The notes below the pieces were generated by a model. The model ran no database searches and had not been told where the DNA came from. It was given only the letters and a program-made list of their open reading frames with translations. Below are positions 39,554 to 45,182 of a stretch of DNA of 57,991 nucleotides, one piece after another. This DNA comes from Myxococcales bacterium. Lineage in GTDB: Bacteria; Myxococcota_A; Polyangia; Polyangiales; JAFGIB01. The DNA lies in the NCBI GenBank assembly GCA_028817905.1, contig JAPPOR010000676.1, positions 1-57,991 on the forward strand, written 5' to 3'. The first letter of the stretch is position 1; every line of letters begins with the position of its first letter. The translations under genes were made by a program, and so were the position numbers.

Positions 39554-40660
39554 CTACCTGGGCTCGCAATCAGCGCCATGGGTCGTCGGTCCGTCCTCCA
39601 GGAGTTCTAGCAGCATCCCATCGGGTCCGCGAATGAAGAAGCTGCGGAAGCCGTGAGCTTCCTCGATGTCATGCACCAGTTCCAGGCCTTGCTCGTCCGC
39701 GCGTGTCCGCCAGGCTGCAAGGTCCGTCACCGCCAATCCCAGGTGGGCGAGCACATGGGACTCGGTGTCTGCGTGGTCGCTAGCATCGCCGAGTTGCTCG
39801 AAGAAGAACAGGATGTCGTCAAGGAAGAAAGAGCTGCTGTTCGGCAGGGTAGCTGGTACCGCCTTGATTCCCAAGAGCCTCTCGTAGAAGGGCATGGTGG
39901 CCGAGAGGTCGGACGTCGTGAAGTGAAGGTGATTGATGTGCGCGTCGGCTCCGCTCCAGAGCTCCACGCGCTCTTCATCCGGCCCGATCAGATACATATA
40001 GGCAACCAGGTCCGGCAGTGTGAAGCATGCTGGGATGGATATGCGAAGGGCGGCAGCAAAACCCCCGGGATTGCCTGTAACAGTCGGCGTGCTTGCTGTT
40101 TGGAGCAAGGTCTCTCCTCGCGTGTCGGGCTCGATTCCTAGTGCGCTGGCGTGTTCAAACCAGGCGATAGGGTCGGACGAGCCGAAGCCCACATGCTGCA
40201 GCGCACTTCGCAGGCTGTACGATGGCGGGGCGGCCACCTCATCGAAGAGCAGGAGGTATGGGCCGGCCTGTAGCGCTGTGCTTCCAGCGAGGTCGGTCGG
40301 CTGCGCTTCGAAGAACTCCTGGTAGAAGCTGGTTGACCGCTCACGGTTGGTCACATTCATGTGGACGTGATGCAACCGTATTGCCGTGGACTCGGTGCCC
40401 TCGGCCTCGTCTGTCTGTGCGCTCTCCGGCGGTTCTTCCGAAGGTTGCCCTGGCTTGTCCATTCCAGGGGGTTCGGGCCGCTGCGACTCGGCGAAGTTTC
40501 GTGCCCTCGCGTCCGCGTCGTCGCAACCGCTGCACGCGCCTGCGGCAGCTTGTTGCTGCGCTTGGGAGCCGGATCCCGTGGTTTGGTCGGAGTCCTGCTT
40601 GCAGCCGGGCAGTGCGTACGCGACAAGCCACAATCCCCACAACACACCGAGTGGTCTCAT
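39554..40660 (-). CDS. Lipoprotein with two VOC (glyoxalase-fold) modules
   Basis: 368 residues from ATG 40660, with GGAGGAAGGC directly upstream. Lipoprotein signal MRPLGVLWGLWLVAYALPGC (Cys20), a Gln/Ala/Glu/Pro-rich linker to about 95, then two VOC modules: about 97-215 (RLHHVHMNVTNRERSTSFY) and 235-355 (INHLHFTTSDLSATMPFYERL). The His in LHHVHMNV and HLHF and Glu in MLLELLED suit metal ligands. An exported VOC protein is unusual, as most are cytosolic. It lies 20 bases after the cytochrome P460 gene on the same strand; the two probably act together in the envelope. Confidence 0.88.
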   Translation of the reverse strand: MRPLGVLWGLWLVAYALPGCKQDSDQTTGSGSQAQQQAAAGACSGCDDADARARNFAESQRPEPPGMDKPGQPSEEPPESAQTDEAEGTESTAIRLHHVHMNVTNRERSTSFYQEFFEAQPTDLAGSTALQAGPYLLLFDEVAAPPSYSLRSALQHVGFGSSDPIAWFEHASALGIEPDTRGETLLQTASTPTVTGNPGGFAAALRISIPACFTLPDLVAYMYLIGPDEERVELWSGADAHINHLHFTTSDLSATMPFYERLLGIKAVPATLPNSSSFFLDDILFFFEQLGDASDHADTESHVLAHLGLAVTDLAAWRTRADEQGLELVHDIEEAHGFRSFFIRGPDGMLLELLEDGPTTHGADCEPR

Positions 40661-40680
40661 GCCTTCCTCCGAGGCGCCGG

Positions 40681-41460
40681 TCAGGGCAGCGCGGTATAGA
40701 ACTGCGTAAAGACGAGGTCCGTCTCCGCATGGTCGGCATGACATTGCTGGCATGCCTGGGCCGGGTTCGGGTCGGCCAGGTTCGTCCTTCCAGGGAAGGT
40801 GTAGTAGCCCCATACCTCATCGGGTAATCGGTCGGAGTCCTTGACGGACATTTCGAAGCCCAGCGGCTCATCGGCGAACAGGCCAGACTTCAGCGGCGCT
40901 GCGCTTTCGCCTGCTGCGTAGATCGCCAGGGCTGTCATCGTACCTTCCCGGAACTCCCCGTGGTCCATGTAGTGGGCGTAGGCGCTCGGCTCCATATAGA
41001 CCGTGCTGAACACGTCGGTTTCCGGTTCGAATGCACCCGCATAGTTCATGTTGAGGCCGGCGCCCAGGAAGACCCATCGTCGCCATTCGGTCTCGGGCAC
41101 ACGTACCAAGGCGCCGTCTTCGTAGCGTGGCGCCTCGTAGGGCCCGGGCTCGATCGCGTCGGGTGCGGTGCCACTGTCACTGGCCAAGCGGTCACCGATG
41201 CCCGCCTCCGCCGTCCGGGTCTCGGCCTGCTCCGTGCAGCCGGTCGAGCTGGCGTGCACTGCCAACGCCATGGTGATGAAAGCAGCGCAGCGGGGGCTGC
41301 GCCGTACTGCTCGCGCAAGCCCCCTCGCTGCAACGGTCCGGGGGCGGACCGTTTCCGGAGCCTGACGAAATGTCCGGGCTGGGGGGCCTTGCGGGTCTGG
41401 GTGAGCATCCACATCGCTGATGCGGCATCCCGTCTGGTGAGAAGAGCTGCAATGGGGCAT
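40681..41460 (-). CDS. Cytochrome P460-like c-type haem protein
   Basis: 259 residues from ATG 41460 (GGAG 8 bases before). The core matches cytochrome P460: WRRWVFLGAGLNMNY, STVYMEPSAYAHYMDHGEF, REGTMTALAIY, and the C-terminal haem site CQQCH. P460 proteins oxidise hydroxylamine or handle NO, using a haem c crosslinked to Lys. The export signal is unclear: RRSPRCAAFITMALAVHASSTGC looks like a lipoprotein signal, but it lies some 50 residues in, so a later non-standard start or a sequence fault is possible (internal ATG 41271 is too late). Operon with the VOC lipoprotein. Confidence 0.82.
   Translation of the reverse strand: MPHCSSSHQTGCRISDVDAHPDPQGPPARTFRQAPETVRPRTVAARGLARAVRRSPRCAAFITMALAVHASSTGCTEQAETRTAEAGIGDRLASDSGTAPDAIEPGPYEAPRYEDGALVRVPETEWRRWVFLGAGLNMNYAGAFEPETDVFSTVYMEPSAYAHYMDHGEFREGTMTALAIYAAGESAAPLKSGLFADEPLGFEMSVKDSDRLPDEVWGYYTFPGRTNLADPNPAQACQQCHADHAETDLVFTQFYTALP
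41332..41353. other. Perfect 9-bp inverted repeat near the P460 gene start
   Basis: AACGGTCCG (41332-41340), GGGG loop, CGGACCGTT (41345-41353). A hairpin or operator within the first part of the P460 reading frame; could regulate the gene if the real start is downstream. Confidence 0.5.
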
Positions 41461-43582: not shown

Positions 43583-44488
43583 CTACTGATACGGAATCGT
43601 GGTGGCGGGCAACTGCCGGACTGGTTGTAGTACCGAGCGTACAAAGCAGGCATGTGACCACTCGCCCTCCGACGCGACGGCCTCATCTTCGCTGGGGCCA
43701 AGCACCAGATCGGCGATGCGCCAGTAGTCTGGGCCGGTTGGGGCGGTTCCCAGGCCCTCCGCGGCGGCCACGCGTTCGATCTCCTCGCACAGTGGCGCGA
43801 CCTTGCAGGCAAGGCGACCGAGAGCTTGGCGACCGTCGGCGCGCACGCGGCCGTGGGTGGGCAGCATTGTTAGTTGCGAGGCGATGCCCGAAAGCCGACG
43901 GCACGACTGCAGCAGGCACGGCGCCGATGATTCGTACCAGGCGATCGTCGGCGACGACGTGTACAAGTCACCGGTCAGCGCGAAGCTCTGGCGCCCGTCG
44001 TTGACGATGAACGCCACGTGTCCGGGCGTGTGTCCCGGGCTTTCGATCGTGCCCACGCGCACGCCGTCCACCTCGAAGACGTCGCCCGCATCGTAGGCGA
44101 TGGCGTCACCGATCGGTTCTGGGTTGCCCCAATACGCGGCTCGATAGCCGGGCACCCGGTCGAATGTGGTGAGTAGGGAGACGTGGGGCCGCGGTACGTA
44201 TGCGGGAATATGACCGTAGGCCCTTCGCAGCGGCCCCACACCACCAACGTGGTCCTCATGTTGGTGGGTACACAGGACGCGCCTTGGTGGCCGATCGGCG
44301 ATCGCCCTTACGAGGGCGTCTGCTGTGAGCGAACTACCCGTGTCAAACAGGGTGTCACCTACGCGGTAAACAGCGAGCTGGGGCGCGCGGGGAAAGTTCG
44401 TTCCAGGCCGGCTCAATGAGATGCGCTCGAAGGGTCCGATTGCCTCGCGCGCAACGTGGACCTCCGAGTCGGCGGCAAACGTCGGCAT
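43583..44488 (-). CDS. Metallo-beta-lactamase fold hydrolase
   Basis: 301 residues. Metal ligands visible: THQHEDH (His75, His77, Asp79, His80), HTPGHV, TGDLY (Asp) and LPTHG (His). The HxHxDH pattern indicates a binuclear zinc or iron centre. Family roles include thioesterases, lactonases, glyoxalase II and nucleases; nothing here decides between them. It has no signal peptide. Seven bases separate its ATG from the stop of the AlkB gene upstream on the same strand, so the two may be co-transcribed. Confidence 0.92.
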   Translation of the reverse strand: MPTFAADSEVHVAREAIGPFERISLSRPGTNFPRAPQLAVYRVGDTLFDTGSSLTADALVRAIADRPPRRVLCTHQHEDHVGGVGPLRRAYGHIPAYVPRPHVSLLTTFDRVPGYRAAYWGNPEPIGDAIAYDAGDVFEVDGVRVGTIESPGHTPGHVAFIVNDGRQSFALTGDLYTSSPTIAWYESSAPCLLQSCRRLSGIASQLTMLPTHGRVRADGRQALGRLACKVAPLCEEIERVAAAEGLGTAPTGPDYWRIADLVLGPSEDEAVASEGEWSHACFVRSVLQPVRQLPATTIPYQ

Positions 44489-44495
44489 GTGGGTC

Positions 44496-45182
44496 CTATG
44501 GTTGGGCGGCGGACGGTGTTACCGGTTCTCGGAACATGATTGCCAAGCGTGGGCCTGCGTGCTTCTGTTTGGGCACGGCGTGCTCCCAGGTCTCCTGGCA
44601 GTTACCGCCCATGACCAGCAAGTCGCCCTCGCCGGGGCGAAACGCGCGCCCGCGCGCCCTTCTTCGATCGACCGGTCGCAACAGAAAGCGCCTGCGGGCT
44701 CCCAGCGAAAGGACTGCGACCACCGTATCACTTCGCAGAGTGCCAAGCTTGTCGCCATGGAAGGCGACGCTGTCGCGACCATCGCGATAGAGGGCGAGCC
44801 GGATCCGGTCCAGGCGCCGGCGGTAGCGCTGGCTGAGCAGTGTGGACATGCGGTCCAGGAGTCCGCGGACGCGGTCGATCTCGGTCTGCCCCGCCCTGTG
44901 CGGGTGTTTTTCCAGCACGGTCTCGCCGCTTAGCGGCAGCTGCCCCGAGCCGCCGGGACACCCGGCGACGAGGCGCGGCACCTCGACCTCTCGCTCGTAC
45001 ATGATCCGGGCGTGTCTTTCCCAGTCCGCCGCGGCGAGCAACTGGTCCATGAGACGCAGGTGCCCGCAGCACCATTCCGGCACGACCTCAATCCAGGCAC
45101 CGCTCCCCAGCTCCATGCGCCGGGCGGTGGCGAAACCGGCGTCTGCGGCGGGCGCTACCTGGTCGAGCAAGGACAGCTGCAT
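44496..45182 (-). CDS. AlkB-like 2-oxoglutarate/Fe(II) dioxygenase
   Basis: 228 residues. Jelly-roll dioxygenase signature: HxD at His142/Asp144 (VAFHGDK), distal His201 (TWEHAVPK) and Arg212 (GPRLAIMFR) for 2-oxoglutarate. The spacing and the VAVLSLGARRRFLLRP stretch are those of AlkB, which removes alkyl groups such as 1-methyladenine from DNA or RNA. It resembles the shorter ALKBH2/3-type bacterial group rather than E. coli AlkB. No Ada or AlkA gene lies nearby. Start ATG 45182. Confidence 0.92.
   Translation of the reverse strand: MQLSLLDQVAPAADAGFATARRMELGSGAWIEVVPEWCCGHLRLMDQLLAAADWERHARIMYEREVEVPRLVAGCPGGSGQLPLSGETVLEKHPHRAGQTEIDRVRGLLDRMSTLLSQRYRRRLDRIRLALYRDGRDSVAFHGDKLGTLRSDTVVAVLSLGARRRFLLRPVDRRRARGRAFRPGEGDLLVMGGNCQETWEHAVPKQKHAGPRLAIMFREPVTPSAAQP

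Follow-up and report, generated by a model that had tools for sequence, protein, structure and literature searches.

The stretch of DNA analysed here (the window; 57,991 nucleotides, from a genome of 11.1 Mb in 1110 contigs) carries a cytochrome P460-family gene and a gene for a protein with VOC domains, both on the minus strand, flanked by a regulator gene and a protease gene. In order of transcription along the minus strand (regulator, P460, VOC, CPBP protease) the genes are:

42771-41788, minus strand: DJ-1/PfpI-AraC transcriptional regulator (PF01965 and PF12833), upstream of the P460 gene on the same strand
41460-40681, minus strand: cytochrome P460-family c-type haem protein, 259 aa (PF16694, E 7e-19; P460 matches in the PDB, E ~1e-23)
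40660-39554, minus strand: two-VOC-domain lipoprotein-type protein, 368 aa (PF00903, E 3e-17)
39477-38848, minus strand: CPBP (Rce1-like) membrane protease (PF02517, E 1.3e-17)

The first-pass annotation had described a cytochrome P460 encoded 20 bp from an exported VOC lipoprotein. Both open reading frames were recovered where it had placed them, the families and the spacing were confirmed, and the P460-family protein is of the c-type (PF16694 match together with a CxxCH motif). Although the list of open frames gives 40813 as the beginning of the VOC frame, translation of the lipoprotein starts with the ATG at 40660. The protein read from this codon begins MRPLGVLWGLWLVAYALPGC and is preceded by the ribosome site GGAGGAAG; with this start, the gap from the P460 stop to the VOC ATG is 20 bp (40661-40680), and the ribosome site lies inside it. 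Because of this short spacing, the two genes are probably co-transcribed. Between the regulator gene and the P460 ATG lie 327 bp, and 76 bp separate the VOC gene from the CPBP protease gene downstream of it; no homologue of the protease was found in the other loci compared (phmmer, E<=1e-3). Further along the window, a 2OG-Fe(II) oxygenase-family gene (44496-45182; PF13532, which we take to be the AlkB-like family) adjoins a gene of the metallo-beta-lactamase fold (43583-44488).

The haem protein and its clade

The PF16694 match covers residues 125-252 of the P460 protein. The residues that bear on its function are encoded as follows:

40738..40752, minus strand: CQQCH haem c attachment motif, C237/C240/H241 (from the sequence)
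40927..40929, minus strand: Leu178 codon, equivalent to the cross-link lysine, Lys70 of NeP460 and Lys106 of NsP460 (from alignments)
40852..40854, minus strand: Glu203 codon, equivalent to the distal proton-accepting Glu96 of NeP460 (from alignments)
41041..41043, minus strand: Tyr140 codon, invariant in the aligned sequences with Leu or Met at the lysine site (39/39; from the alignment)

The start codon of the P460 gene is uncertain. The ATG at 41460 has GGAG upstream, and read from there a long N-terminus precedes the hydrophobic stretch AAFITMALAVHASSTGC, so that the signal, judged by eye, is less clear than in two relatives. A P460 paralogue in the same genome starts with MKRWVLITALALLAC and a homologue in locus L205 has the translated start VRATVWIGAVLAVLAASC, both of which look by eye like clear lipoprotein-type signals. 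In the VOC protein the lipobox LPGC is convincing, again by eye. Both proteins are apparently exported.

The best solved relatives of the haem protein are cytochromes P460 (E ~1e-23). Among the cytochromes c'-beta McCP-beta, NeCP-beta and TtCP-beta, a single chain, 7ead, matched the window domain at E<=0.01, with an E of ~1e-5. Cytochrome P460 and cytochrome c'-beta are separated by the cross-link lysine, which c'-beta proteins lack (PMC11928373, as far as the consulted text goes). By this feature the window protein is not a strict cytochrome P460, as both it and its paralogue have Leu at the Lys70 site. The aligned distal carboxylate, Glu203, would on the other hand be that of a P460, and the paralogue shares the Glu as well. 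The residue at the lysine site predicts a haem without the lysine cross-link, as in the three c'-beta proteins, whereas at the carboxylate site these carry Gly or Ala (PMC11928373, Table 2, within the part consulted) and the window protein appears by alignment to have kept its Glu. At the site of the capping Phe (Phe32 of McCP-beta) the window protein has Thr, in a loop where the alignment is uncertain and where NeCP-beta itself has Arg. A structure model made from the single sequence had a mean pLDDT of 32, and the pocket is described here from sequence alone.

Compared with NeP460 and NsP460, the window protein shares the PF16694 domain, the CxxCH haem site, the distal Glu (Ala in wild-type NsP460) and further motifs, but differs in the Leu that replaces the cross-link lysine, in apparently lacking the capping Phe and in an extra invariant Tyr of the distal loop. 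Its Leu and Glu are the same pair as in the engineered variant NsP460 K106L/A131E, reported to be cross-link deficient with a Soret band at 402 nm (PMC11928373, consulted part). That variant is engineered and keeps its Phe cap, whereas the window protein is natural and a member of a clade; by its aligned residues it is a natural counterpart of the engineered Leu/Glu protein. The solved chain 6w6n carries Leu and Glu at the cross-link and carboxylate sites and is presumably this variant. The first-pass annotation had also considered hydroxylamine chemistry. With Leu in place of the cross-link lysine, and with the same pair of residues as NsP460 K106L/A131E, oxidation of hydroxylamine by the window protein appears unlikely and this part of the proposal is not supported: every cross-link-deficient cytochrome P460 so far characterised is described as inactive with hydroxylamine, and NeP460 K70A as gaining guaiacol peroxidase activity (PMC11928373, same part).

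The absence of the lysine is a property of a clade and not a single loss. Among the loci gathered, 20 aligned sequences have Leu/Glu at positions 70/96, the window protein included, and 12 have Met/Glu. A maximum-likelihood tree was made from the 64 sequences with a profile score of at least 90 bits, two of them reference fragments. In this tree the 39 Leu/Met sequences form one clade with support of 100/99, and both the window protein and its paralogue fall inside it. A quick tree made without the columns around both sites returned the same clade (SH-aLRT 92). At least two changes between Lys and another residue are needed to explain the tree; the paralogue and L125 sit on long branches, and 21 of the 61 inner branches are open. 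The statement on the clade covers the 39 Leu/Met sequences kept and not every Leu/Met sequence seen, as those falling below 90 bits include Met sequences (L068, L071 and L120, the last from a gene broken by a stop) together with the Phe sequences L065 and L067. Two Phe/Gly sequences, which resemble c'-beta, lie on a branch apart from the Leu/Met clade.

Within the 39 sequences the Tyr and the Asp of the KD motif are invariant (39/39 each), Glu96 is present in 34/39 and the capping Phe in 0/39. The capping Phe is found in 15/16 Lys-type sequences, chosen for a Lys at position 70 together with Ala, Asp or Glu at position 96; the 16 include two reference fragments. By group searched or by record title, 32/39 clade members are from Acidobacteriota, a group towards which the sampling is biased. 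The closest sampled relatives outside the own genome are eight Acidobacteriota proteins, 44-47% identical to the window protein. Matches to it were found in 33/199 Acidobacteriota genomes, in 7/398 genomes of a Pseudomonadota sample and in 9/289 genomes of the window's class (own included), and 7/72,556 plasmid records matched the P460 domain at 29-34% identity (tblastn).

That the lysine can be lost is already known, since Leu and Met are among the replacements noted for c'-beta proteins in PMC11928373. A phylogeny from 2019 removed sequences without the cross-link lysine from its list of cytochromes P460, and such a clade would thus not have been counted there as P460 (PMC6427953). A clade bearing both Glu and Tyr is not described in the consulted parts of these two papers; it may still be published. 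In a different part of the family, L194 and L195 are single open frames of ~570 aa with two tandem P460 domains of the Lys/Glu type and a weak third match.

The VOC lipoprotein

The VOC protein consists of two VOC domains, four beta-alpha-beta-beta-beta modules in all, and PF00903 matches it in two stretches (E 3e-17). Two sets of residues, one His/His/Glu in each half, were identified from invariant positions and the alignment:

within 39554-40660, minus strand: first half, H97/H98/H100, H156 and E233; second half, H244/H246, H306 and E352

H100, H156, E233, H244, H246 and H306 are invariant among 21 sequences from several phyla, the window protein included, and H97, H98 and E352 are kept in at least 90% of the same sequences. 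These conserved residues fit one putative His/His/Glu metal site in each half, a reading that presumes a pairing of the modules which we take as given. An AlphaFold model had a mean pLDDT of 73.6; ten-residue blocks average 76 to 97 in residues 91-180 and 221-360, and the model is poor in the leader and in residues 181-220. In a fold search with this model, the best solved match was maize glyoxalase I (Z 22.8), followed by PcpA (4huz; Z 21.9), GLOD4 (21.2) and the Bacillus subtilis protein 3oaj (20.3), at 12-15% identity. All four share the overall four-module fold with the window protein, with Z of 20 to 23 over 227-243 residues, whereas identity to it is 12-18%, and the window protein is of lipoprotein type with a His/His/Glu set in both halves.

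With the VOC fold and the putative His/His/Glu ligands both present, the protein resembles the metalloenzymes of the VOC superfamily. An exported VOC metal protein had been proposed at the outset: of this, export is backed by the lipoprotein-like signal, and the metal part extends as far as the retention of candidate ligand residues. No NCBIfam cut-off was reached by the protein, its score against the lactoylglutathione lyase (glyoxalase I) equivalog TIGR00068 being 27.5 bits against a cut-off of 120, and consequently a lyase and a dioxygenase are both possible.

The genes around the 21 distant VOC loci look heterogeneous by eye (protein ends only); the exception is a tandem of VOC genes seen in some Acidobacteriota. 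In loci L052, L053, L055 and L057 of this phylum, two genes of the window VOC family stand in tandem, and near them is a gene start that by eye resembles an RND transporter.

Genomic neighbours

The proposal that the P460 and VOC proteins work as a pair was followed by a survey of gene neighbourhoods, and no recurrence was found in the sampled genomes. The window is the only adjacency of the two genes in 377 genomes of the phylum, own included. PF16694 matched in 43/377 (E<=1e-8) and the VOC query in 32/377 (E<=1e-3), the own genome being in both sets. Four genomes had both matches (G000, the own genome, with G075, G174 and G251), on the same contig only in the window. Most other VOC matches in this sample span the second VOC domain only, and are thus weak relatives. 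Among 56 close relatives (own included; E<=1e-3), the VOC query matched 3 and PF16694 matched 15; G001 and G004, from the window's family, have the VOC gene and no P460 match.

Searches from either side of the pair agreed. Around 21 VOC loci taken from several phyla, no P460 gene was found within up to 5 kb on each side. When 93 P460 loci, some of them overlapping, were scanned with a VOC profile, the window's own two copies were the only matches, and in a second set of 32 loci the window was the only match; as this profile was built from the window VOC family, other kinds of VOC gene could be missed. These counts refer to samples of genomes with fragmented assemblies, and to P460 loci mostly with 1.5 kb flanks, many of them overlapping. 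In 12/19 genomes with distant VOC relatives a P460-family gene is present elsewhere, a count with no same-query baseline for those phyla. The own genome holds paralogues of the P460 and VOC genes, at 48% and 53% identity respectively, and these are apart, on contigs C1065 and C249, among other neighbours (e.g. a trypsin-like protease). With one adjacency in 377 genomes and the surveyed loci, and the paralogues apart, the P460-VOC pair as a conserved two-protein system is not supported, and was rejected. No literature linking cytochrome P460 to glyoxalase or to myxobacteria was found in the library searched. Contig C1065 also carries a gene of the MauG/di-haem cytochrome c peroxidase family (L033:8625-9830), some 2.5 kb away from the P460 paralogue.

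The DJ-1/PfpI-AraC regulator adjoins a P460 gene at three places: in the window, at the paralogue locus, where the regulator is 40% identical and divergently oriented, and in G1174, a genome of the same taxonomic order. In G1174 (L205:3001-4559) the stop of the regulator gene and the start of the P460 lipoprotein gene overlap as GTGA, which suggests translational coupling. Four Leu-type P460 genes were found in the order (window, paralogue, G1174 and G1159), and the regulator is beside three of them; in G1159 (L206) there is a weak AraC-type match alone (34.9 bits), ~1.3 kb from the P460 gene. No regulator was found near the Lys-type P460 gene of G1160 (L207). All cases of this link come from a single order. 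In the own genome the regulator has 42 matches, seven of which were counted as near full length, and the chance of finding a regulator beside both of its P460 genes was put at ~2e-6, a rough and after-the-fact figure that assumes 8,000-11,000 genes. A search for literature linking cytochrome P460 to AraC regulators gave nothing relevant by title.

A different neighbour recurs in Acidobacteriota. All members of the main Met/Glu subclade (11/11) adjoin a gene with a domain match to a molybdopterin-binding large subunit, and a [2Fe-2S] subunit gene comes next in 6/6 of the wider Acidobacteriota regions read. The Met/Glu P460 and molybdenum genes are found together at L172-L177, L117-L119, L124 and L142-L149; in L172 alone, the start that was read resembles a twin-arginine signal. 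By substrate class, we place the neighbour with the aldehyde and xanthine oxidases among the molybdenum hydroxylases. The position beside the molybdenum subunit genes suggests that the P460-like protein may serve there as haem partner of an exported molybdenum hydroxylase, and the P460, molybdopterin and [2Fe-2S] genes together likely encode a three-gene exported oxidoreductase. No literature linking P460 to isoquinoline 1-oxidoreductase was found in the library searched.

Possible roles of the two proteins

From the gene layout, the residues, the clade membership and the neighbours, all observed directly, we infer haem state, pocket geometry, activity, metal binding, regulation and co-transcription. 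On balance, it seems rather probable that the locus encodes a cross-link-free exported redox or ligand protein of the P460 kind and an independent exported VOC metalloprotein, with no conserved two-protein system. The P460 gene product would be an exported single-haem c-type protein from the cross-link-free branch of the superfamily. Its haem is predicted to be a normal c-haem, with a ferric Soret band near 402 nm and not ~440, and its distal site would be open and lined by the invariant Tyr and the conserved Glu. Given such an uncross-linked haem and an open Tyr/Glu site, it would most likely be a redox protein that is peroxidase-like or binds ligands such as NO or peroxide, rather than a hydroxylamine oxidase. 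The adjacent DJ-1/PfpI-AraC regulator probably controls the P460 gene. The VOC gene product would be a separate exported lipoprotein that carries two metal sites of His/His/Glu type, and its most likely role is that of a metal-dependent lyase or dioxygenase in the periplasm.

Alternatively, the VOC and haem proteins could form a lineage-specific periplasmic detoxification unit, in which the two share a substrate (e.g. a reactive aldehyde or peroxide) and the regulator induces both together. The 20 bp spacing with its ribosome site is consistent with such a unit, the duplication of both genes in the own genome is a possible hint of a shared role, and the nearest sampled P460 relatives, those of Acidobacteriota, sit with a molybdenum hydroxylase. 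We nevertheless regard it as unlikely, as the duplicates lie on different contigs with other neighbours, the VOC relatives in G001 and G004 come from the same family and are without a P460 match, and no second adjacency was found in the samples. It is rather more doubtful that the haem protein belongs to the cytochromes c'-beta, gas-binding proteins that arose from P460 when the cross-link was lost. The cross-link lysine is indeed absent, which is the class-separating feature in PMC11928373, and Leu and Met are both among the replacements noted in the consulted part of that paper, but the distal carboxylate appears to be kept, the Phe cap appears to be missing and the c'-beta-like Phe/Gly sequences belong to a separate branch of the tree. 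A classical hydroxylamine-oxidising cytochrome P460, with the VOC protein in an assisting role, is highly improbable. Membership of PF16694 and the conserved distal Glu would agree with it, but the lysine is absent from the window protein, from its paralogue and from the 39-member clade, and the reported cross-link-deficient cytochromes P460 are all inactive (PMC11928373, as far as consulted).

In the reading that we favour, of two independent exported proteins, the haem protein is of more interest than the P460-VOC pair, belonging as it does to a cross-link-free clade with an invariant Tyr, a conserved Glu and two kinds of recurrent neighbours. The annotation 'cytochrome P460' in myxobacteria or Acidobacteriota should not be taken as a sign of ammonia or hydroxylamine oxidation. 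We tentatively raise the possibility, less than probable at present, that the clade with Leu/Met, Glu and Tyr makes up a third class of the P460 superfamily by function, beside the hydroxylamine oxidases and the gas-binding c'-beta proteins. Its members would then be haem modules with a peroxidase-like or electron-accepting role, which different bacteria have joined to different exported enzymes: in Acidobacteriota a molybdenum hydroxylase, and in the window a regulator-controlled unit with an acquired double-site VOC protein, perhaps for defence against reactive carbonyls or peroxide. If the clade were such a distinct class, it would be a natural test set for the role of the cross-link, since its members are of the same family and have kept the Glu, and the lysine is absent.
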